A stretch of 64,000 nucleotides of DNA, from assembly GCA_002898255.1 (NCBI GenBank), contig BEIE01000001.1, positions 248,001-312,000 of the forward strand. The letters run 5' to 3'. Below are positions 4,280-16,727 of this stretch, one piece after another; within the stretch, counting starts at the first letter, position 1; each line of letters starts with the position of its first letter. The notes below the pieces were generated by a model. It saw only the letters and a list, made by a program, of their open reading frames with translations, made no database searches and had not been told where the DNA came from. Both the position numbers and the translations under genes were made by a program. This DNA comes from a bacterium HR28. GTDB lineage: Bacteria > Chloroflexota > Chloroflexia > Thermomicrobiales > Thermomicrobiaceae.

Positions 4280-5752
4280 GTGAACGAGCGAGGGGCGATC
4301 GAACTGCGAACGCGACTAGACAGCTCGGTACTCGAGCGACTGCCACCGCCGCTGCATGACATCAACGATCGGCTGGCGCGCGTCTTCAGCCGTACCGGCC
4401 ACGAACTCTACCTGGTCGGCGGTGTCGTGCGTGACCTCCTGCTCGGCCGACCGGTCACAGACCTGGACTACACCACCTCGGCACACCCAGAGGAGACAAA
4501 GCGCCTGGGCCTAGAGGCAGGGGCTGACAGCATCTACACAGTTGGGGAAGCCTTCGGAACGATCGGCCTCGTCTTTGCGGGCGTTACAGTGGAGATCACG
4601 ACGTACCGTACCGAGTGGTATCCGACACCTGACCGACGACCAGCGGTCCGCTTTGGAACCAGCCTCCGCGAAGACCTGGCACGACGCGATTTCACAGTGA
4701 ACGCGATGGCCGTCCATGCCGTCACCGGCGAATTGATCGACCCGTTCGGTGGCCTTCGCGACCTTGAACGGCGGATCCTGCGCGCCGTTGGCGACCCGCG
4801 CGAGCGTTTCCGGGAAGATCCTTTGCGCATGCTGCGGGCCGCACGCTTTGCCGCTCAGCTTGGCTTCGACGTTGAGCTGGAGACGCGTGCTGCGATCTGC
4901 GAACTTGCCGCTGAACTTCAGCGCGTGAGCGTCGAGAGGATTGCGTTAGAGCTGAACCGCTTACTCCTCTCGCCAGAACCGGATCGCGGCCTTGAGCTCT
5001 TGCGCCAGACCGGTCTCTTACCGTACGTCTTGCCAGAACTCGTTCCGCTGGCCGAGGATATTGCCGACCGGCGCCACAAAGACATCTGGCGCCATACCTT
5101 ACAGGTCGTCCGCCAGAGCCCACCGCGTCTCGCCGTGCGTTGGGCCGCCCTCTTGCACGACGCTGCCAAGCCGATGACGCGGACGATCGACGAGCGTGGC
5201 GAAGTCCACTTCTTCGGGCACGAGATCGAGGGCGCACATCTGGCGCGCAAGGCGTTGCGGCGCCTCCGACAAGAGAAGGCGCTCATTGAACGCGTGGCGC
5301 GGCTCGTCGAGCTGCATCTTCGTCCGGCTGCCTATGATGAGACGTGGACCGACTCGGCCGTGCGTCGTCTCATGGTCGAGGCCGGTGATCTCCTGGACGA
5401 CCTTCTTGACCTTGTTGCCGCCGACGTGACAAGTGCACGCGCTGCTCGTCGCCGAGAAGCTGCTGCACGGATCGCCCGCCTCCGGGCACACATCCGACGC
5501 CTCGAGGAAGAAGCAGCGCTGGCGCAAATCAAAAGTCCACTGGATGGCCATGAACTGATGGCGATCTTTGGCTTGCCACCGGGGCGCTGGATCGCTGAGG
5601 TGAAGAACTACCTCCGTGAACTCGTCATTGAGGGACAGCTCGCTCCTGGTGACAAAGAGACCGCTCGCATGCTCGCCGAGCGCTGGGTCGCTGAACACCC
5701 CGAAGTCATCACACAGGTCGCACGGCCGTCCCGCGGATCGTCTGCCCAGTGA
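4280..5752 (+). CDS. cca: CCA tRNA nucleotidyltransferase / poly(A) polymerase family, with HD domain
   Basis: This 490-aa protein belongs to the class II nucleotidyltransferases that add or repair the CCA end of tRNA. The head carries [22 protein letters not shown] (flexible loop plus the metal-binding DxD, read here as DLD), then [10 protein letters not shown] and the [24 protein letters not shown] region typical of the neck. The C-terminal half has an HD-type phosphohydrolase signature (WRHTLQVV, then LLHDAAKP). The frame is open upstream, but a GTG at 4280 is preceded by GGAGG at good spacing and gives a normal N-terminus. The tRNA in this window has no encoded CCA, which fits a need for this enzyme. 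Its 3' end overlaps the convergent next gene by 44 bp. Whether it is a pure CCA enzyme or has poly(A) activity cannot be told from sequence. Confidence 0.9.
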
Positions 5753-7526
5753 CCAGGACGTCGCTCCTCTCCTCGAGGGGCCGAAATGAGCCAGCGACTC
5801 GCGTGAGTTGCTGGGCCGCCTCATCGATCCGCGCCGTCATGTCATTGAGTTGCTCAGTTTCGGCATGCAGTTGCTCGACAAGAACAGCCAGCGCTTCCGC
5901 GGCACTGCTCGTCTCGCGGCTGCCAGCGGCGACCTCGCGCACCTGGTGGGCGACCCGACTCAACGTCGCAGCCACTTCTTCGGTCGCAGCGGTATGTCCC
6001 TCAACAACACGTGCGACGCGCTCAATTTCCGCGACGACCTCCTCCTTCGCTCGTGCCATCGTCGCGCTCGTGGTCCCGATCGCACTCATCCGCTGCCCGA
6101 TGTCCTGTGCACTTGCCATCAAACGCTGTAACGCGGACTCTGCCTCAGCTGCTAGTGTCACACCCTCCTCCACCTCGCGGACACCGGCCGAGGTGACAGC
6201 CACTACATCGTTCAGCGTCCGCAAGATCTGCTCGACAAGACCACGGATCTCCTGTGTTGTCGTGCTCGAGCGCTCAGCGAGCTTCCGGACCTCCTCTGCC
6301 ACCACTGCAAAGCCTTTCCCAGCCTCCCCAGCTCGCGCCGCCTCGATGGCCGCATTCAGCGCAAGCAGGTTGGTCTGTCGCGCCAGTTCGTCGACCGCTT
6401 CCACCATCTGTGTGATGGAGCGGGAGAGGTGGGCCATTTCCTCGACTCGCGTACTCACCTGGCGCATCCCCTCGCCTGACCGACGCAAGGAGGTAATCGC
6501 ACGACGAACCGTTTCGCCCCCAACCTGTGCTTCCTCCACGTTCCGTTGGCTCGCTACCACACCATCTTCGGCAGCGGCCGTCACGGCTTGGATATGCGCC
6601 GCGAGAGCTTGTGCGAGCTCGGTGAGACGACGCAACGCCTGCTGTTGTTCGCCCGCGCCGCGAGCGATATCGGCGACAGCACGCTGGACTTCTTCCACTG
6701 CCTGTTCGGCAGCTTGCAGATATTCGCTTTGACGGATTGCTCCTTTGGACACTACCTGTACAGCCTGGGTCGCCTCCGCCGCGGCATGAGTGAGACTACG
6801 GCTTGTCGCACCGAGTCGCTCGCTCGTCGTGATCGCCAGCTCCGTCGCCCGCTGTAGACTCGCGACTGCCTCCCGAACCGTTGCCTTGAGCTCACGGTAA
6901 CAATCAGAGAGATCATCCTCGGGTCGTTCTGGCACCACCGATGCAAGGTCGAAACCGACCGCATCAAGAAACTCGAAGAAGAAGGCATCGACCACTGCCT
7001 GCTGGTCAAGATTGAACACCTTGGCGAGCGCGCGCTCGACTCGCCACCATCGCCAGGGCTGAAGTGGGAAGCTACGGCGCAACTCGGCACGAACAAGGTC
7101 GAGGTAGCGTCCATAACTACCGACATACCACTTCATCGGAAGATCGATCACATTGTGCTGGGCGCCGATTCGTAAGCGTCGCCCGAAGTAGCCGAGATCA
7201 TAGCCGTCGCGAGCAGCGCGAAAGATTTCGCGAAAGTACTCGGCTTGGGTTCGCTCGAGACGGCGACGCAGTTCTGCGAGCGTGATTCCACGCGACTGCG
7301 CGTAGCGCTCAAAGAACCGTCGGGTCGGCTCAAAGCTGAACTGGAAGTCGTAGAAACGTTGGGCGATCCGGTCGGCTACACGCTCGGCCCACGGTGCCAT
7401 CCGGGCGAGCTCCTGCCGTTCCCGCTCGGTGAGTCCAAGGAAAGCAACACGCTGCCGTACCCCAGCTAATGTGATGCGGACCGCTGCTGCAAGGTCACGC
7501 GGTGCACTGTGGACACGATCATCCAT
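5709..7526 (-). CDS. Globin-coupled methyl-accepting chemotaxis protein (HemAT-like)
   Basis: This soluble 605-aa sensor has an N-terminal protoglobin domain (residues about 20-190) and a C-terminal MCP signalling domain. The proximal haem ligand is probably His124 in [20 protein letters not shown], which matches the HemAT segment around its haem histidine; [15 protein letters not shown] is also HemAT-like. The MCP hairpin tip reads [20 protein letters not shown] and [15 protein letters not shown], flanked by long Ala/Glu-rich coiled coil. There are no transmembrane segments, as in HemAT. The family senses oxygen or other gases through haem and signals to CheA/CheW. The ATG at 7526 is preceded by AAGGAGG; an upstream in-frame ATG adds 14 unlikely residues. 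No che genes are in the window, so the target pathway is unknown. Confidence 0.9.
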
Positions 7527-7748
7527 GACAGATAATCCTCCTTTCCACGTTCCGGCTGCCGTCTTCACACGCCTTTTGTTACTATCGTGTTGAGATTGGA
7601 ACGGAAGACATCCTCCTCCGTCGATTTCGTTCGCTAATTCTCCAGCGAATAACGACGAAACACGGCGTTCTCACCAGTCTTCCCTCCTAGGAAAGAAGTT
7701 GGATCGCATCGGTACGTTCGTTCATTAGACTGAGCAGCGAGGGAGACG

Positions 7749-8840
7749 GTGCAGGATCGAAATTCGCTCACCAGTACGATCGACGAGTGGCTCGCCGGTC
7801 GTCCTGCGGCAACGCGTCGCGCCTATATCCACGACGTCCAAGAGTTCCTCTCAGCAGTCGGCGGAAACTTCGCCCAGCTGGACGAGGCGGCGATTCGTCG
7901 TTGGCTAGCGACATTCGAGCGTCGTCATCTGGCACCAGCGACGATGCGACGCAAGCTTGCCGCCGTCCGTTCTTTTCTCCGCTTTCTCCACGACCAGGGA
8001 ATCTTGGAACGTGACTTGAGTCAAACTATCCCTACGCTAGTACGACCGAACGCCGCACCAGCGCCAGCAATCCGCACGACTGAACGAGGCCGTTTTCTTG
8101 CTGCCGCGCTGCGTGTGGCCGAGCCGCGTCTTAAGCTACTCCTGTGGCTCGTGGGCTGTGGTTGCCCCCTGCCGGCCATCACGCAACTCCGCTGGCAAGA
8201 CCTCCAGCAGAACGAGGGAGAAGGCATCGCCATTTGCCACGACGACCGCGACCGACCGCTGCGCTGCGTGATCCCAGGGATCATCTGGCGCTCGCTCGAG
8301 CAACTCAAAGCCACTGCTCCCGCCAACGCGCCTGTCTTCATTCGACCGGACGGGACGCCTGCTACACCGCAAGACCTCGCCGACACCATCGGCTGGGTTC
8401 TCGAGGGAACGACCACAGATCTATCACCCCCCACCACCCGAGAACATGACCGTCTCCTGACGCTCAGCGAGGTAGCCCAACGGCTCGGCCTGCCGGAGAC
8501 GACCGTTCGCTACTATCGAGACCGCTTCGCGCCATATCTCCCCGTGGTCGGGGAAGGACGATCGCGTCGTTATCCACCGCAAGCTGTCGAGCGGCTGCGC
8601 TGGATCGTTGAGCAACTCCGCGCCGGGTCTTCAGTACAAGAGATCGAGGCGCAACTCCGCAGTCATGCTCGCGCAGTCGTTCCCCCTTCGGGACAAGATG
8701 CTCAGCTTGTGGAAACGGTCGATCGGCTAAGCCAGCGCATCAGCGAGCTGACGGAGAGTCTTCTCCGTGTTGCCCGGGCACTCGAGGAACAGGGGCGTTC
8801 TCTTCTCACTGGGAAGCCACCAGAACCCTCATCATCCTGA
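7749..8840 (+). CDS. Degenerate tyrosine recombinase fused to MerR-type DNA-binding domain
   Basis: This 363-aa protein has three parts. Residues about 10-95 are a SAM-like core-binding domain of phage integrases (TRRAYIHDVQEFLSAV, then TMRRKLAAVRSFLRFLHDQG). Residues about 110-225 resemble the recombinase catalytic fold (LKLLLWLVGCGCPLPAITQL then RWQDL), but the first catalytic Arg position is lost and no HxxR box or nucleophilic Tyr follows. Residues about 235-300 are a clear MerR helix-turn-helix (LTLSEVAQRLGLPETTVRYY), followed by a helical tail. It starts with GTG. I infer a DNA-binding regulator or structural DNA-binding protein derived from a recombinase, not an active integrase. Neighbouring genes give no further clue. 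Confidence 0.75.
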   Translation: MQDRNSLTSTIDEWLAGRPAATRRAYIHDVQEFLSAVGGNFAQLDEAAIRRWLATFERRHLAPATMRRKLAAVRSFLRFLHDQGILERDLSQTIPTLVRPNAAPAPAIRTTERGRFLAAALRVAEPRLKLLLWLVGCGCPLPAITQLRWQDLQQNEGEGIAICHDDRDRPLRCVIPGIIWRSLEQLKATAPANAPVFIRPDGTPATPQDLADTIGWVLEGTTTDLSPPTTREHDRLLTLSEVAQRLGLPETTVRYYRDRFAPYLPVVGEGRSRRYPPQAVERLRWIVEQLRAGSSVQEIEAQLRSHARAVVPPSGQDAQLVETVDRLSQRISELTESLLRVARALEEQGRSLLTGKPPEPSSS

Positions 8841-9026: not shown

Positions 9027-9584
9027 TCAGTCGACGAGCGTACGAGCTGCCCAGATCGTGTCCGGAAAGCGCGTGCGAAGGATAGTCCAGACCCGATCGA
9101 GCTCTGGACGGGAGCGTGTCGCCAGGTAGACAGCGACACCCCACCAGTACGCCGCCTCCGGTGCCCAGGGGCTCGGCGGTTCCCGTTCGGCGATCCGGCG
9201 GAACAGCGCGCTCGCCTCCTGGAAGCGGGCCCAATGCAGTGCGACGTGTCCCTCACCAAGATCGAGGAGTTCCAGAAAGAGATCAGGGGGCAAGAAGTCT
9301 GGACTCCGGTAACGCACCTCACCACGCCGATCAAGAAAGAGGATCGTCGGCGTCCAAATCACCCCGAGCGGACGCAGCCATTCGCGCGGATCGTGAAAGA
9401 GATCCAGCGAAAGTGGCACGAATCGCTCTCTGATCGCCGCCACGACACGTGGATCGCTGAAGGTCGCGGCTTCCAGCCGCGCACATCCCCGTCAGTCGGT
9501 TTTCCAGACATAGACAAGAATCGGCTTGCGTTCTTGCTGCGCCGCCTCGAGCGCCTCTGGAAGGTTTCGTCGCCAGGTAAACAT
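9027..9584 (-). CDS. Thioredoxin-like protein with in-frame UGA at the first redox-Cys position (candidate selenoprotein)
   Basis: The ATG at 9584 has a strong ribosome site (GGAGGTG, about 6 bases away) and encodes MFTWRRNLPEALEAAQQERK followed by PILVYVWKTD. Codon 31 (9494-9492) is TGA, and the same frame continues RGCARLEAATFSDPRV and so on, giving D-UGA-R-G-C where thioredoxin-fold proteins have CxxC. Downstream are the cis-Pro strand WTPTILFLD and a helical, TPR-like C-terminus ending ARTLVD. With UGA read as selenocysteine the protein is 185 aa. The bases right after UGA can form a 7-bp stem, CGCGGCT/AGCCGCG, with loop GGA beginning 17 nt after the UGA. This is compatible with known bacterial SECIS spacing and loop-G rules. 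Expected role: a thiol or selenol oxidoreductase. The alternative is a nonsense mutation or sequencing error in a CxxC gene. Confidence 0.6.
9477..9493 (-). promoter_or_regulatory. Possible bacterial SECIS hairpin downstream of the UGA codon
   Basis: On the minus strand the UGA (9494-9492) is followed by 10 nt and then a 7-bp helix CGCGGCT/AGCCGCG around a GGA loop. A G stands at the first loop position, as selenocysteine-specific SelB recognition normally requires. The helix lies within roughly 9459-9482 of the coding strand just past the UGA; the coordinates given are approximate. In GC-rich DNA such helices also arise by chance, so this is supportive only. Confidence 0.35.
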
Positions 9585-9777
9585 CGAGACACCTCCAGCA
9601 CTCGTACAGCACTGGCAGTATCAGTGCCAGTCGGTCTGTTCGCAAGGGGCCGTCACTCCTGATCTCGACGCGAGGTTATCAAGGGTTTGGCGCATTCACT
9701 GGCCGAGGGCTCTGCGGAGCAGACCTTTGATCATTCCGCATACCCTACGGAATTGCGGCTACTATTTCGGAACCCTG

Positions 9778-12700
9778 TTAGCGTAAAAGCGGTAGGATTG
9801 CTTCGGGCGGCACGGGGCGGCCAAGCCAAAAGCCCTGACCGTAGTCGCAACCGAGCTGTCGCAAAAGCTCCTCCTGTTGTGCGTTCTCAATCCCCTCAGC
9901 TGTCACGCTAAGACCTAAGGCTCGTGCCAGCTCGAGCACCGAACGAATGACCGCTTCACTGGCACGATCGCGCTCGATATCGCGGATCAACTCACGGTCG
10001 AGCTTAAGGCCGCGCACCGGCAAGCGTTTCAGGTAGCCGAGCGAGGAATAGCCCGCTCCAAAGTCGTCGATCAGGACCGCCACGCCAAGCGCTCGCAGGC
10101 GTTCTAGTCGTTCCTGCGAGACGGCCGGGTCGAGCATGGCCGATTCAGTCAGCTCGAGCGTAAGCTGCTGAGGCTGAATGCCGGTCACTTGTAAGATGTC
10201 CTCGACGAGCTGGGGAATATCCAAGTGCACGAAGTCAATCGGGCTCAGGTTCACGCTGACTGCCAGGTCGGGGGCAGCCCCAAACCGCAGCCAGTACCGC
10301 AGCTGCCGGCAGGCCTGCAGAAGGACCCACTGCGTGAGCTGGCTAATCAGTCCAGTCACCTCAGCGAGCGGCACGAACACTGCGGGGGAAACCGGGCCAC
10401 GCGCTGGGTGGTGCCAGCGGACAAGCGCCTCCACGCTGGACACCTGTCGGTCTCTGAGATCGAGCACCGGTTGGTAGTGCAGACGGAGTTCCCCTTGTTC
10501 GAGTGCCCGCCGCAGATCGCGCTCCAGGAGCTGCCGCTCGACACTGGCCTGGTACAGTGTCGGATCGTAGACCGCCAGCGACTCCCGCCCCGATCGTTTG
10601 CCGATCTGGAAGGCAATCTCGGCACGTCGCAAGACACTGGCCGCATCGTCCCCGTCCTGCGCGATCGCGAGGCCCCCACGCATGTGGAGATAGACTTCGT
10701 CACCGCCAATCTCGTACCAGCCACTGAGGTCAGAGAGGAGCTCCTCCGCTGCTGTAATCAGCGCACTGCGATCTCGCGCACCGAGCACCACGGCAAAGCG
10801 ATCCGCCTCCAAGCGCGCGGCAAGCAGCGCACTGCCCACGCGACGCAGGCGTCCGGCAACCGCCCGCAGCGCAGCGTCACCCGCCTCCCAGCTCATTGTG
10901 TCGTTCAGGAGCGAGAAGCGCTCGAGATCACAGCAGAGCACTCCAATAATTCTGTCCGCAGACTGCTGCAACAGGGCATCAAACTCCTCGAGAAATCCAA
11001 AGCGGTTGACCAGACCGGTCAGTTGGTCACGCGTCGCCCGTTCCCGCAGGAGCTGCTCGGCCCGTCGCCGCTCACTGACATCACGGACCGAGAGAACAAT
11101 CCCCGCAATGTGTGGGTCAGTTCGCAGATCAAGGCCTGAAAGCTCCACAACCCGTCCCGGAAGGTTGGCAACAGCAACTTCAATCCGCCGGGGATGATCG
11201 GATGCGAGTTCGTTCAGTACCCACTGCTCAATCCGTTGCCCATCGGTAACCAGTTGCCATAGCGGCTGGCCGACAATCATCGACGGTTGAAGGCCGAGTA
11301 CCGAGCGGGTCACTGGCGAGGCAAAACGCACAACCCCCCGCTCGTCGAGGACGAGCAGCGCGTCAGGAGAGGCGAGAATCGTCGCGCGCAGCCAGGCATG
11401 GTGTTGCGCTTCTGCCCGCTCGGCCCGGCGCTGTTGCAAGGCAGCCGTGACAAGTTGCCCGACAAGCGCTACCAGGTCGATCTCCTCCTCACTCCAACGA
11501 CGCTCACACCGTTGCGTCGCAGCAACGAGGCATCCGCGCAGTTGACCGGAGGAGAAGAGCGGCACTGCGAGCAGAGAGCGGATCCCAAGTCGCTGGAGCA
11601 CACGCCGTTCGGGTTCTGCCTCTTCGGCGAGGTCTGCAAGCGAATGCAGGACGAGTGTCTGCCCCCGTTCGAGCTGTTGCCGAAGCCAGTGCAAGCACGA
11701 GAGCGCTGAACTATCAGGCATTTCAGTAGGGATATCGACTCCCTGTGTGCGCCAATGTGCCAGGCACATCACCTCGTCAGGCTCGCAGGTGAAGAGGAGG
11801 AGGTGATCGACCGCGAGGAACTGCCCCACCTCTCGCAGAGCTGCCGTAACAGCCTGCTCCATCTGATCGTGCGTTGCAGCGACGAGTTGGCTGGCAACAC
11901 CGAGGAGCGTATTGTGGAAAGCCAGTTCGCGCTGGAGTCGCGCTTCCAAGCGTTTCTGGTGCGTCACGTCGGTCAAAAGTCCGTGCCAGATCCACGGTTG
12001 GCCCAGTGGATCACGGACGAGAACCGCCTCGTCACGCAGCCAGATCGTCCGCCCATCGCCGGTACGGAACCGATATTCCACCCGGAACGATTCCCCCGAG
12101 CGATCGGTGCGCTCCTCCTCGTGCAAGGCCCAGGCACGATCCTCCTGCAGGACATAGCGCTCGTACCAGGTGATACGATCCACCTGGAGCGCCTCTGGTG
12201 GCCAGCCGAGCAAGCGCTCAGCCACCGGACTGACATAGATTTTCCGGTGGGGTGGAGCCGCCTCCTCGGCGTAGACAACGGCTGGCAGCTGCTCGACAAG
12301 CGCTTGGTAGCGGCGCGCGAGCGTCTCGAATTCGGGTGAGCGGCGAACCAACTCGCTCAGATCGTGCAACGTTGACCAGAGCAGAATCCGGTCACCAACC
12401 CGAACCGGACCAGTGATGACTTCGACCGAACGGACGCGTCCGTCGGCAAAGCGATGCTCGAAGACGTACCGTGATCGGGGACGCTGCATTGCTTCGGCTA
12501 GCCGAGCACGGATCTCGGCTGGTGGAAGCGTATTGATGCGATCGATGGTGAACGAGCGAAGGAGTTCGCGCGACCAACCATAGAAACGCGCCGCAGCATC
12601 GTTTGCATCGACGATCTGGCCGTCCGATGGATCGATCAACAGCTGCGGTTCTGGCCCATGCCAGAGCGCGAGGAGGAGCTCCGGTGCCTCAGCGTTTGGC

Positions 12701-12786
12701 GAGTCGGAGGGAGCGCGCGGGAGGGACGCTTGGCCAGGCAACACCCGTGGCTCCATTCGCTGCTCGTGAGACTCCCGCCCGTCCAC
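9778..12786 (-). CDS. PAS-PAS-GAF-PAS-GGDEF-EAL protein, probable c-di-GMP phosphodiesterase
   Basis: This 1,002-aa signalling protein has PAS domains at about 40-150 and 160-290 (RYQALVEQLPAVVYAEEA opens the second), a GAF domain at about 300-450, a third PAS at about 465-585, then GGDEF and EAL. The diguanylate cyclase motif is degenerate: RLEADRFAVVLG stands where GGDEF is expected. The EAL domain looks intact: VEALVRW, LELTESAMLD, IDDFGAGYSSLGYLKRLP and VTAEGIEN. I therefore infer c-di-GMP hydrolysis tuned by sensory domains, with the GGDEF part regulatory. The GTG at 12786 is chosen because GGAGG lies 5 bases upstream; another in-frame GTG four codons earlier overlaps that site. There is no clear membrane segment. 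Confidence 0.9.
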   Translation of the reverse strand: MDGRESHEQRMEPRVLPGQASLPRAPSDSPNAEAPELLLALWHGPEPQLLIDPSDGQIVDANDAAARFYGWSRELLRSFTIDRINTLPPAEIRARLAEAMQRPRSRYVFEHRFADGRVRSVEVITGPVRVGDRILLWSTLHDLSELVRRSPEFETLARRYQALVEQLPAVVYAEEAAPPHRKIYVSPVAERLLGWPPEALQVDRITWYERYVLQEDRAWALHEEERTDRSGESFRVEYRFRTGDGRTIWLRDEAVLVRDPLGQPWIWHGLLTDVTHQKRLEARLQRELAFHNTLLGVASQLVAATHDQMEQAVTAALREVGQFLAVDHLLLFTCEPDEVMCLAHWRTQGVDIPTEMPDSSALSCLHWLRQQLERGQTLVLHSLADLAEEAEPERRVLQRLGIRSLLAVPLFSSGQLRGCLVAATQRCERRWSEEEIDLVALVGQLVTAALQQRRAERAEAQHHAWLRATILASPDALLVLDERGVVRFASPVTRSVLGLQPSMIVGQPLWQLVTDGQRIEQWVLNELASDHPRRIEVAVANLPGRVVELSGLDLRTDPHIAGIVLSVRDVSERRRAEQLLRERATRDQLTGLVNRFGFLEEFDALLQQSADRIIGVLCCDLERFSLLNDTMSWEAGDAALRAVAGRLRRVGSALLAARLEADRFAVVLGARDRSALITAAEELLSDLSGWYEIGGDEVYLHMRGGLAIAQDGDDAASVLRRAEIAFQIGKRSGRESLAVYDPTLYQASVERQLLERDLRRALEQGELRLHYQPVLDLRDRQVSSVEALVRWHHPARGPVSPAVFVPLAEVTGLISQLTQWVLLQACRQLRYWLRFGAAPDLAVSVNLSPIDFVHLDIPQLVEDILQVTGIQPQQLTLELTESAMLDPAVSQERLERLRALGVAVLIDDFGAGYSSLGYLKRLPVRGLKLDRELIRDIERDRASEAVIRSVLELARALGLSVTAEGIENAQQEELLRQLGCDYGQGFWLGRPVPPEAILPLLR

Positions 12787-13365
12787 TGTATCCTCCACGT
12801 TCCGGTGAGGACACGCTCAATCTTCTGTATTCGGCACAAAGCGCGGCACGCTGAAGGGGTAGACGCGGTTTCGCTCCAGATTCTGGCCCGTCCCCCGGAG
12901 TTTGGCCGACGGGTGAAAACAGCCAACGAGCCAGGCCAGGGTTCGCCAGTGACAAGGCAGTCGTCTGCAACAACAGTGGCTTGGGATGACGCAACCCCGG
13001 CGAAGGGCGGTGATCCAGTTTGTATCCGTGCGTGGCGCAGTCAACCGAGCCTGTTCGTCCCATCCCACAAATGGCCTACAGATCACCAGCACACTGAAGA
13101 CACTTCCCACTTTCTTTCTCGTCACTGAACGACCAGAAGCGAGCGCGCGGCGAATTCTCATGACATGCCGTGGATACATCCCATCATCGGCAGCATGCGT
13201 CAGGGCAAACAGGTGTCGGCAACAGCATCGGTGGAGCAGACCATTGAGCCCACCACCCACTCGTGAGTTCTCTGCAATTGGATTGGCACGAGCCGAGTGC
13301 ACTGCTGCAACGGGCAGTCGTTCACGGAGCGGGACGATGCAGACCTTCCGCTTCACCCAGGGGGC
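12787..13365. other. Intergenic region upstream of the glutamine synthetase locus
   Basis: About 580 bp lie between the divergent EAL protein and the glnA promoter. Reading frames here have no recognisable protein. I see no RNA gene or insertion sequence. Confidence 0.4.
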
Positions 13366-13733: not shown

Positions 13734-15182
13734 ATGTACGGCACGTGCAAAACACCGGAAGATGTCCTCGATCTCATCCGACAACACAATGTCCAGATCG
13801 TTGACCTCCGGTTCACCGACCTTCCGGGCACCTGGCAGCACGCGTCGTTACCGGCCAGTCAACTGAGCCTCGCCGACTTCGAACGCGGGATCGGGTTTGA
13901 CGGGTCGAGTATTCGTGGCTTCCAAGCCATCGAAGAGAGCGACATGCTCCTCGTCCCCGATCCAACGACTGCCTTCGTCGACCCCTTCGCCACGATCCCG
14001 ACATTAGCCATCATCTGCAATGTCATCGACCCGGAGACGCGGAAGCCCTATTCGCGTGATCCGCGCCACATCGCGCAGAAGGCCGAAGCGTTCCTTCGCG
14101 CCACGGGGATTGCTGACCAGAGCTTCTGGGGACCGGAGATCGAATTCTTCCTCTTCGACCATGTCAGCTACGATGTCCTGCCGTACCGGATGGGCTTTAG
14201 CATCGACTCACGCGAAGGTTATTGGAACAGCGGCCGAAACGACGGGAAGCCGAACCTCGGCTACACAATCCGTCCCAAGGAGGGATACTTCCCTGCCCCG
14301 CCGCACGACACCTTCCAGGACATCCGCAGCGAAGCTGCACTCATCCTGGAGCAGATCGGTGTACCGGTCGAGATGCACCACCACGAGGTCGCGACGGCCG
14401 GGCAGGGTGAGATCGACATGCGTCGCGATACGCTGACCGCGATGGCCGATAAGGTCATGATCTACAAGTATGTCGTCAAGAATGTGGCGCGCAAGCACGG
14501 CTGTACAGCCACCTTTATGCCGAAGCCGCTCTTCGGCGATAACGGCAACGGCATGCACACGCACCAGAGCCTCTGGCGGGACGGCACGAACCTCTTCTAC
14601 GCACCCTGCCACTACGCCGAGTTGTCGGAGACGGCACTCCACTACATTGCCGGGCTCTTGACGCATGTCGACGCGCTGCTCGCCTTCACGAGTCCGACAA
14701 CGAACTCCTATAAGCGGCTGGTACCGCATTACGAAGCGCCAGTCAACATCGCCTTCTCCAAGCGCAACCGTAGCGCCTGCGTCCGCATCCCGATGTACAC
14801 CACCGGGCCGGAAAATGCAGCGACCAAGCGTATCGAGTTCCGACCACCCGATCCGAGCTGCAATCCGTACTTGGCCTTTGCCGCCATGCTCATGGCCGGA
14901 ATCGACGGCATCATGCGGCGCCTCGACGCCAGCCCGTTCGGCCCGCTGGATGTGAACACCTACCACCTCCCACCGGAGGAAGCAGCTCGGATCAGAAGCG
15001 TCCCCGGTTCGCTCGGCGCAGTTCTCGACGCACTGGAGCGCGACCACACCTGGCTCCTCGAAGGCGACGTCTTTACGCGCGATGTGCTTGAGACCTGGGT
15101 CGCCTACAAGCGGGAAAAGGAGCTCCAGGAAGTGAATATCCGGCCACATCCCTATGAGTTCTACCTGTACTTCGATGTGTGA
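13734..15182 (+). CDS. glnA: Type I glutamine synthetase
   Basis: Glutamine synthetase condenses glutamate and ammonia with ATP in the cytosol as a dodecamer. The 482-aa protein has the family hallmarks: FDGSSIRGF near the N-terminus, GPEIEFFLF (metal-binding Glu), EVATAGQGEID, KPLFGDNGNGMHTHQSLW (ATP region), NSYKRLVPHYEAP (glutamate-binding loop) and RIEFRPPDPSCNPYLAFAA. The segment DVNTYHLPPEEA aligns with the adenylylation-site region of enterobacterial GSI-beta enzymes (NLYDLPPEEA), so the Tyr is kept. Length also fits the GSI-beta form. The ATG at 13734 follows a G-rich ribosome site. It lies behind the TTGACA/TATTCT promoter, the structured RNA and the palindrome, and is followed by a second, different synthetase. 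Confidence 0.95.
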   Translation: MYGTCKTPEDVLDLIRQHNVQIVDLRFTDLPGTWQHASLPASQLSLADFERGIGFDGSSIRGFQAIEESDMLLVPDPTTAFVDPFATIPTLAIICNVIDPETRKPYSRDPRHIAQKAEAFLRATGIADQSFWGPEIEFFLFDHVSYDVLPYRMGFSIDSREGYWNSGRNDGKPNLGYTIRPKEGYFPAPPHDTFQDIRSEAALILEQIGVPVEMHHHEVATAGQGEIDMRRDTLTAMADKVMIYKYVVKNVARKHGCTATFMPKPLFGDNGNGMHTHQSLWRDGTNLFYAPCHYAELSETALHYIAGLLTHVDALLAFTSPTTNSYKRLVPHYEAPVNIAFSKRNRSACVRIPMYTTGPENAATKRIEFRPPDPSCNPYLAFAAMLMAGIDGIMRRLDASPFGPLDVNTYHLPPEEAARIRSVPGSLGAVLDALERDHTWLLEGDVFTRDVLETWVAYKREKELQEVNIRPHPYEFYLYFDV

Positions 15183-15362
15183 CGGAAGTGTGAGCACATT
15201 GGTGGGTGGGGATGGGAGGTGGTGTGATGGGACCATGACGCGTTAAGGAGTACACTCATGGGCGGCCAGGATGGCCACGGCGCAGCCGCTCGGATCAACC
15301 GGTGGCAACGGCGCCGTCGGTGGATCGGCAGTGACGGTCGATTCCAAGAAGGAGGTTTTGCT

Positions 15363-16727
15363 TTGGTTGTCGATACGCGTGTTGTCGGTCGTCGCGCACC
15401 AGCTCCGACTCCAGAAGAGGTGCTGAAGCGTGCTGAGGAACTCAAGATCGAGTTCATCAGCCTCCAATTCACCGACATTATGGGGATCGTGAAGAACGTC
15501 CAAATCCCCATCGATGTCTTCCCGCACGTCATCGAGCAAGGACAGTGGTTCGATGGCTCCTCGATCGAGGGGTTCGCCCGCATCGCCGAGAGCGACATGT
15601 ATCTGATGCCGGATCTCTCTACCTTCGCCCCGATTCCCTGGGATCCCCAGACTGCACGTGTTATCTGCTGGGTTTACAACCCAAACGGGGAACTCTTCCC
15701 GGGTGATCCGCGTGTGGTCCTGCTGCGCCAGCTCGAGCGGGCAGCAAAGCTCGGCTTCGTCTATAACACCGGGCCAGAGCTCGAGTTCTTCCTCTTCCGC
15801 AAGGAGAACGGCAAGATCATGCCGCTCCCCCATGACCAAGGGAGCTACTTCGACTTGACCACCGACCTTGCTGCCGAGGTGCGCAAGGACATGATCCGAG
15901 CTCTGCAGGCCTTCGGCATCAAGGTCGAGGCTGGGCACCACGAGGTCGCTATCGGCCAGCACGAGATCGACTTCGAGTATTCCGATGCGCTCACTACGGC
16001 CGATAACGCGATCACCTTCAAGTACACGCTGAAGGCGATCGCACAGCAACATGACCTGCACGCGACCTTCATGCCCAAGCCGATCGCCGGCATCAACGGG
16101 AGCGGCATGCATACGCACCAGAGCCTGGCATCGATCGAGACCGGTGAGAACCTGTTTGTCGATGTCGACGACCCGTATGGGCTCTCTGATCTCGCCAAGC
16201 ACTTCATCGCTGGCCAGCTGTACCACGCCCGCGGGATGTGCGCCGTACTGGCGCCGCTCGTCAATAGCTACAAGCGGCTTGTGCCCGGCTACGAGGCACC
16301 GGTCTACATCAGCTGGGCACGGCAGAACCGCTCGGCCCTGATCCGTGTGCCAGCCGTGCGACATGGTCGCCTCCAGGCAACACGCATCGAACTCCGTTGT
16401 CCGGATCCCTCCGCTAACCCCTACCTGGCCTATGCCGTCATGCTGGCTGCCGGACTGGATGGGATCGAGCGAAAGCTGCCGCTTCCCGAGCCGGTGGAGG
16501 AGAACGTCTACCACTTCACGGACGAAGACCTCAAGCGGCGCAACATCCAGACACTCCCGGCAACGCTGGGTGAGGCGATGGCAGAACTGGAGAAGGACGA
16601 GGTGATCCGCGAGGCGCTCGGTGAGCACGTCTTCGAGCGGTTGCTCGAAGCACAGAAGCGCGACTGGGACGCCTTCCGGCAGTATGTGACCCAGTGGGAG
16701 CTCGATCGGTACCTCGAGATCTATTGA
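15363..16727 (+). CDS. glnA: Second type I glutamine synthetase (GSI-alpha-like)
   Basis: This 454-aa glutamine synthetase is clearly diverged from its neighbour. It has FDGSSIEGFARIAESDMYL, GPELEFFLFRK, EVAIGQHEIDF, KPIAGINGSGMHTHQSL, NSYKRLVPGYEAP and RIELRCPDPSANPYLAYAV. It is shorter and lacks the adenylylation-type tyrosine context, fitting the GSI-alpha form usually controlled by feedback or GlnR-like regulators. The start is TTG at 15363, placed 7 bases after a perfect AAGGAGG; the frame is open upstream from 15258, but those 35 residues are Arg/Gly-rich and unlike the family. The gap to the first synthetase is 180 bp, so co-transcription is possible. A strong terminator follows. Confidence 0.93.
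   Translation: MVVDTRVVGRRAPAPTPEEVLKRAEELKIEFISLQFTDIMGIVKNVQIPIDVFPHVIEQGQWFDGSSIEGFARIAESDMYLMPDLSTFAPIPWDPQTARVICWVYNPNGELFPGDPRVVLLRQLERAAKLGFVYNTGPELEFFLFRKENGKIMPLPHDQGSYFDLTTDLAAEVRKDMIRALQAFGIKVEAGHHEVAIGQHEIDFEYSDALTTADNAITFKYTLKAIAQQHDLHATFMPKPIAGINGSGMHTHQSLASIETGENLFVDVDDPYGLSDLAKHFIAGQLYHARGMCAVLAPLVNSYKRLVPGYEAPVYISWARQNRSALIRVPAVRHGRLQATRIELRCPDPSANPYLAYAVMLAAGLDGIERKLPLPEPVEENVYHFTDEDLKRRNIQTLPATLGEAMAELEKDEVIREALGEHVFERLLEAQKRDWDAFRQYVTQWELDRYLEIY

Follow-up and report, generated by a model that had tools for sequence, protein, structure and literature searches.

The gene described here lies in a window of 64,000 nucleotides (the whole stretch of DNA analysed) from the bacterium HR28, a relative of Thermomicrobium, whose genome as examined comprises 3.12 Mb in 8 contigs and is 99.6% complete. 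On the minus strand of this window, a reading frame opens with an ATG at 9584, runs through 30 codons to a TGA at 9494-9492, and continues for a further 154 codons before reaching its terminal TGA. The features assigned to the gene, all on the minus strand, and the evidence used for each are as follows.

9027-9584, minus strand: predicted selenoprotein gene, 185 residues including Sec31, terminal stop TGA at 9029-9027 (reading of the frame, orthologues)
9590-9596, minus strand: ribosome-binding site GGAGGTG, with the ATG 5 nt downstream (sequence)
9492-9494, minus strand: predicted Sec codon, a TGA at codon 31 that opens the UxxC motif (orthologues all have TGA or TGC/TGT here)
9483-9485, minus strand: codon TGT of the predicted resolving Cys34 (invariant in the alignment)
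9465-9481, minus strand: putative SECIS hairpin, 7-bp stem CGCGGCU/AGCCGCG, loop GGA at 9474-9472 (bSECIS scan, covariation, codon freezing in orthologues)
9228-9584, minus strand: thioredoxin-fold domain that spans about residues 1-119 and includes cis-Pro79 of WTP (Pfam, AlphaFold, PDB matches)
9030-9227, minus strand: C-terminal helical tail with two TPR-like hairpins, about residues 120-185, the first helix starting from residue 100 (AlphaFold, TPR matches in homologues)

The initial annotation had described a well-initiated frame, a single TGA after 30 codons at the place of the first Cys of a CxxC motif, and a thioredoxin fold with the cis-Pro strand WTPTILF followed by a helical tail. 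The sequence agrees on each count, GGAGGTG at 9596-9590 standing properly ahead of the ATG and the TGA at 9494-9492 being the sole internal in-frame stop, and so do Pfam and AlphaFold (pLDDT 97.2). With U at codon 31, the product reads MFTWRRNLPEALEAAQQERKPILVYVWKTDURGCARLEAATFSDP...VIWTPTILFLD..., in which the motif around Sec31 is TDURGCARLEAATF and the cis-Pro strand is IWTPTILF; the Pfam models Thioredoxin_7 (49.6 bits) and Thioredoxin_2 (44.5 bits) both score above their cut-offs. A mechanical list of open reading frames contains only a 138-residue piece of this protein, starting from GTG 9443 and missing the active site.

Several neighbouring genes were also recorded. Directly upstream of the gene, a PAS/GAF/GGDEF/EAL signalling protein is encoded on the minus strand (9778-12798), and convergent with it is a 363-residue ORF on the plus strand (7749-8840), where a phage-integrase N-terminal SAM-like domain precedes, in an unusual combination, a MerR-type helix-turn-helix domain. 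Further away lie a globin-coupled sensor, a fusion of a protoglobin with a methyl-accepting chemotaxis signalling domain (5709-7568, minus strand), and an adjacent pair of ORFs that by eye resemble glutamine synthetases (13734-15182 and 15258-16727, plus strand). No conserved gene neighbour hinting at a partner was found in the window and 23 named records; one protein cluster, represented in the window by a poly(A) polymerase/tRNA nucleotidyltransferase-type protein, recurs near the gene, only in four Thermomicrobia-type members.

A class-level survey of 158 genomes yielded 39 orthologues that were read at this position, where the codon is TGA in 29 and TGC or TGT in 10. Besides HR28, another 28 genomes of the class keep both the TGA and the frame downstream of it. 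Among 66 distinct homologues the column holds TGA in 56 and Cys in 10, with no instance of TAA or TAG, so that the alternative to TGA is always Cys; Cys34 is invariant across the alignment. A conserved in-frame UGA with Cys in other homologues is the pattern by which bacterial selenoproteins are recognised, and this is what was found. Outside the class, TGA forms occur in other Chloroflexota and, in named records, in Acidobacteriota, Brocadiaceae and other Planctomycetota, Actinomycetota, Armatimonadota, Desulfobulbales and relatives of Geobacter, giving a spread over at least six bacterial phyla. The records from other phyla carry TGA in 20 of 20 cases, a ratio that is no census, the alignment used as search seed having consisted mostly of TGA forms. 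The closest named record is from Thermomicrobium sp. CFH 73360 (85% protein identity). TGA homologues are also present in Geobacteraceae, including Trichlorobacter, the family being found in only 7 of 76 Geobacteraceae genomes. One Chloroflexota genome (G328) encodes two divergent copies (L078 and L084), both with TGA.

One in-frame TGA interrupting what is otherwise a normal CxxC protein resembles a nonsense mutation, and the locus might be read as a drifting pseudogene of a Cys-type thioredoxin gene, or as a sequencing error. However, 56 distinct sequences carry TGA at this codon, the codons that follow it are frozen at synonymous sites (see below), and eleven pairs compared downstream of the TGA give dN/dS of 0.04-0.28, similar to that upstream. 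The TGA is not an isolated one, and no decay of the gene, which had been named as a sign against a selenoprotein, was seen; on the conservation of the TGA and dN/dS we have ruled out this explanation, its probability being vanishingly small. The UGA might instead be a true stop, with a shorter functional product made from an internal start such as GTG 9443, whose 138-residue frame is the one that the mechanical list offers. Such a product would be without the active site, whereas residues 1-30 are preceded by a ribosome-binding site and evolve under purifying selection (dN/dS mostly 0.06-0.34), and the TGA column is the redox Cys in relatives without sel genes, all of which keep the reading frame ahead of it. 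Given this Cys column, the kept frame ahead of it and dN/dS, we have rejected the internal start as well, and consider it extremely improbable.

The distribution of the two codon states is related to that of selA. Among the 29 genomes with TGA, selA scores above the cut-off in 27, is a fragment at a contig end in one, and is missing from one that is 64% complete, while it is absent from seven of the ten Cys genomes, the other three Cys forms occurring in selA-bearing genomes. The resulting co-occurrence of TGA and selA (Fisher p = 5.7e-5) overstates the independence of the observations, because the seven selA-less Cys genomes form one clade, nested among Sec forms, and therefore stand for one event or a few rather than seven. 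In a tree of the 66 sequences, four changes between Sec and Cys are sufficient, and none of 500 shuffles gave a number as low. These data suggest that Sec may have been replaced by Cys together with the loss of Sec decoding, a direction that we infer, since the root of the tree is a midpoint one.

Judged by gene content, HR28 itself decodes selenocysteine, as the initial annotation had supposed, and the absence of the sel genes, which would have counted against it, was not seen. Its genome encodes selA (548.6 bits), selD (359.5 bits), selB (365 bits, with its neighbours) and a tRNA-Sec (73 bits) with the anticodon UCA according to ARAGORN; selA, selB, selC and selD together are the decoding set expected of a bacterium with selenoproteins. 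The SelD gene (L010, C1:1068420-1069352, minus strand) carries a TGA in frame within ASCAGUAGK, which would make SelD itself a UxxK-type selenoprotein; the UxxK loop is known from Sec-SelD. Furthermore, two formate dehydrogenase alpha-type genes (L147, C2:344601; L148, C1:441682) contain one in-frame TGA each in ARIUHSSTVPGLG, in both cases at the UH motif.

The published model of the bacterial SECIS specifies a stem of 4-16 bp and a loop of 3-9 nt with G in its first two positions, located 16-37 nt from the UGA and with an energy of at most -7.5 kcal/mol (PMC13188914). The 7-bp stem with a G-starting loop, which had been noticed in the sequence at a suitable distance from the UGA, conforms to all four points: the hairpin CGCGGCU-GGA-AGCCGCG has an exact stem of 7 bp starting 10 nt past the UGA, a GGA loop, a distance of 17 nt from the UGA to the loop, and -11.1 kcal/mol when folded alone. 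With our own implementation of the model as printed in PMC13188914, used in place of the bSECISearch program, 40 of 57 TGA homologues passed. Not one Cys homologue out of 10 did so, and among all 1767 TGA triplets that the window contains the rate was 2.9%; the 17 TGA homologues that failed include most of the Geobacter-type ones. Two alternative helices can be distinguished: Thermomicrobium, Acidobacteriota and a few others use helix A, and most of the remaining Chloroflexota use helix B (CUGGAUGC/GUAUCCAG). One or the other is present in 45 of the 56 distinct TGA sequences and in none of the Cys sequences. In helix A, 94% of the pairs are kept across 14 homologues, which were chosen for using this helix. 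Its outer two pairs show double changes (C-G/A-U/G-U and U-A/G-C/A-U), and the covariation signal is gone when the partner is slid by 1-3 columns. The folding stability of the region is unremarkable relative to shuffles (z = -0.84), and since stability alone is uninformative, the case for the hairpin rests on covariation and on codon freezing. Among 79 columns with conserved residues, the seven most biased in synonymous codons are codons 6-12 past the TGA, where, for example, all 23 Asp are encoded by GAT and all 23 Val by GTG; the binomial p values of this bias ignore relatedness, equally for all 79 columns. No freezing of synonymous codons was found after the column in the Cys forms. The Geobacter-type homologues (L111, L113-L117 and L128-L132) keep the TGA and are without helices A and B. 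Their stretch past the TGA (ATGGACGCGGTCGCGTAC) is strongly conserved, which suggests that they may use an atypical SECIS.

Readthrough of UGA with insertion of Trp or Cys is a known phenomenon, and near-cognate suppression could place an ordinary amino acid at position 31 instead of Sec. Against this stand the presence of tRNA-Sec, SelA, SelB and SelD, a hairpin that fits a SelB-type SECIS, and an alternative residue that is always Cys; such readthrough is very unlikely, if marginally less so than a pseudogene or an internal start. The selenocysteine reading is supported by coding past the UGA, by Sec/Cys interchange, by the SECIS and by the decoding genes, and each computational test proposed for it (the search for sel genes, the alignment of the UGA column and the SECIS scan) turned out in its favour. 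On this comparative evidence, UGA 31 would almost certainly be recoded as selenocysteine, and with high confidence we regard the gene as a selenoprotein gene that employs SelB, Sec-tRNA(UCA) and the hairpin for recoding and would encode a soluble thioredoxin-fold oxidoreductase.

The structure predicted by AlphaFold (pTM 0.91) consists of a DsbD-gamma-like thioredoxin domain and two TPR-like helical hairpins, the fold being followed by helices 100-117, 121-132, 141-156 and 159-172. In a structure search, DsbD-gamma and related thioredoxin chains matched residues 1-119 with Z of about 14-16.6; because this search spanned residues 1-119, it hardly tests the tail. TPR models score in the tail of some homologues, with TPR_6 above its cut-off only in one (L118). 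No signal peptide is apparent by eye in the window protein, which is probably cytosolic, while homologues in Brocadiaceae and a GWA2 Planctomycete seem to have one. By homology, the product is likely to be a thiol-disulfide oxidoreductase. In thioredoxin-fold UxxC proteins Sec attacks and Cys resolves. In the proposed mechanism, UGA 31 would be recoded by SelB, acting together with Sec-tRNA(UCA) and the hairpin that closely follows the codon, the selenolate of Sec31 would attack a disulfide or an oxidised thiol, Cys34 would resolve the selenenylsulfide, cis-Pro79 would shape the active site, and the TPR-like tail would probably hold a client or partner.

Among known proteins, the C-terminal (gamma) domain of DsbD is the best match to residues 1-119 in both sequence and fold, with a CxxC at the same place; the HR28 protein differs from DsbD in being without the membrane and alpha domains and an apparent signal peptide, and in having Sec for the first Cys and an extra helical tail. 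The chaperedoxin CnoX/YbbN likewise has a thioredoxin domain, followed by helices to which the TPR-like tail of the HR28 protein may correspond, and E. coli YbbN is ranked fifth by Foldseek; YbbN is absent among the 50 matches listed in the search with residues 1-119, and a joint superposition on it is poor (rmsd 11.6). Compared with CnoX/YbbN, the HR28 protein has a much shorter tail, a thioredoxin domain of DsbD-gamma type and UxxC, and a client-holding role like that of this chaperedoxin seems rather unlikely. The NCBIfam selenoproteins TsoB (NF045694), VPGUxxT (NF041383) and Trx7/PDZ (NF041199) have a related thioredoxin-type domain but other motifs and other partner domains, and their models score far under the cut-offs (45 vs 805, 30 vs 275 and 18 vs 300 bits, respectively); no model of NCBIfam release 20 reaches its cut-off for the HR28 protein or six diverse homologues. 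Searches against plasmids returned no match at the DNA level; the protein matches, to thioredoxin, DsbD or DUF255, were all partial.

Thioredoxin-fold UxxC selenoproteins are a well-known kind. A 2026 review lists 119 selenoprotein families, including a 'thiol:disulfide interchange protein' with PF13098 and UxxC (PMC13188914), which was known from three deltaproteobacteria in 2006 (PMC1794560); its listed hosts are Geobacter metallireducens, G. uraniireducens and Syntrophus, and its reference is WP_011366075.1 (PMC1794560, PMC13188914). The chances are about even that the HR28 family is this listed family, now found in Thermomicrobia and other phyla. PF13098 scores 44.5 bits against a cut-off of 27, the UxxC motif (URGC) is the same as far as the listing, with its domain and motif, allows comparison, and TGA members occur in Geobacteraceae including Trichlorobacter. 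On the other hand, only 7 of 76 Geobacteraceae genomes have the family, PF13098 is a broad class, and the listing is silent on the TPR-like tail with P-x-[ST]-x-W, which is conserved in the HR28 family; this family reaches Chloroflexota, Acidobacteriota, Planctomycetota and others. Of the original claim of a new selenoprotein, the selenoprotein stands and the word 'new' calls for caution: proteins of this kind are known, and a family already listed may be identical to this one. No literature report of the family in Thermomicrobium or Sphaerobacter was found, in a search outside which most subscription papers lay.

A bolder reading, which we hold to be somewhat less likely than not, is that the gene belongs to an unrecorded family with a thioredoxin domain and a TPR-like tail in at least six phyla, Sec-dependent and chaperedoxin-like, in which Sec prevails and is probably ancestral and Cys occurs where decoding was lost. 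Plain gene callers would truncate such a protein ahead of its active site. The gene brings a widespread, Sec-rich redox family into the selenoproteomes of Chloroflexota and of several further phyla, and it exemplifies a class of genes that lose their active site when every stop codon is read by the ordinary rules. The seven-species selA-less Cys clade, nested among Sec forms, would offer a clean natural example of Cys taking the place of Sec while the RNA element is lost.
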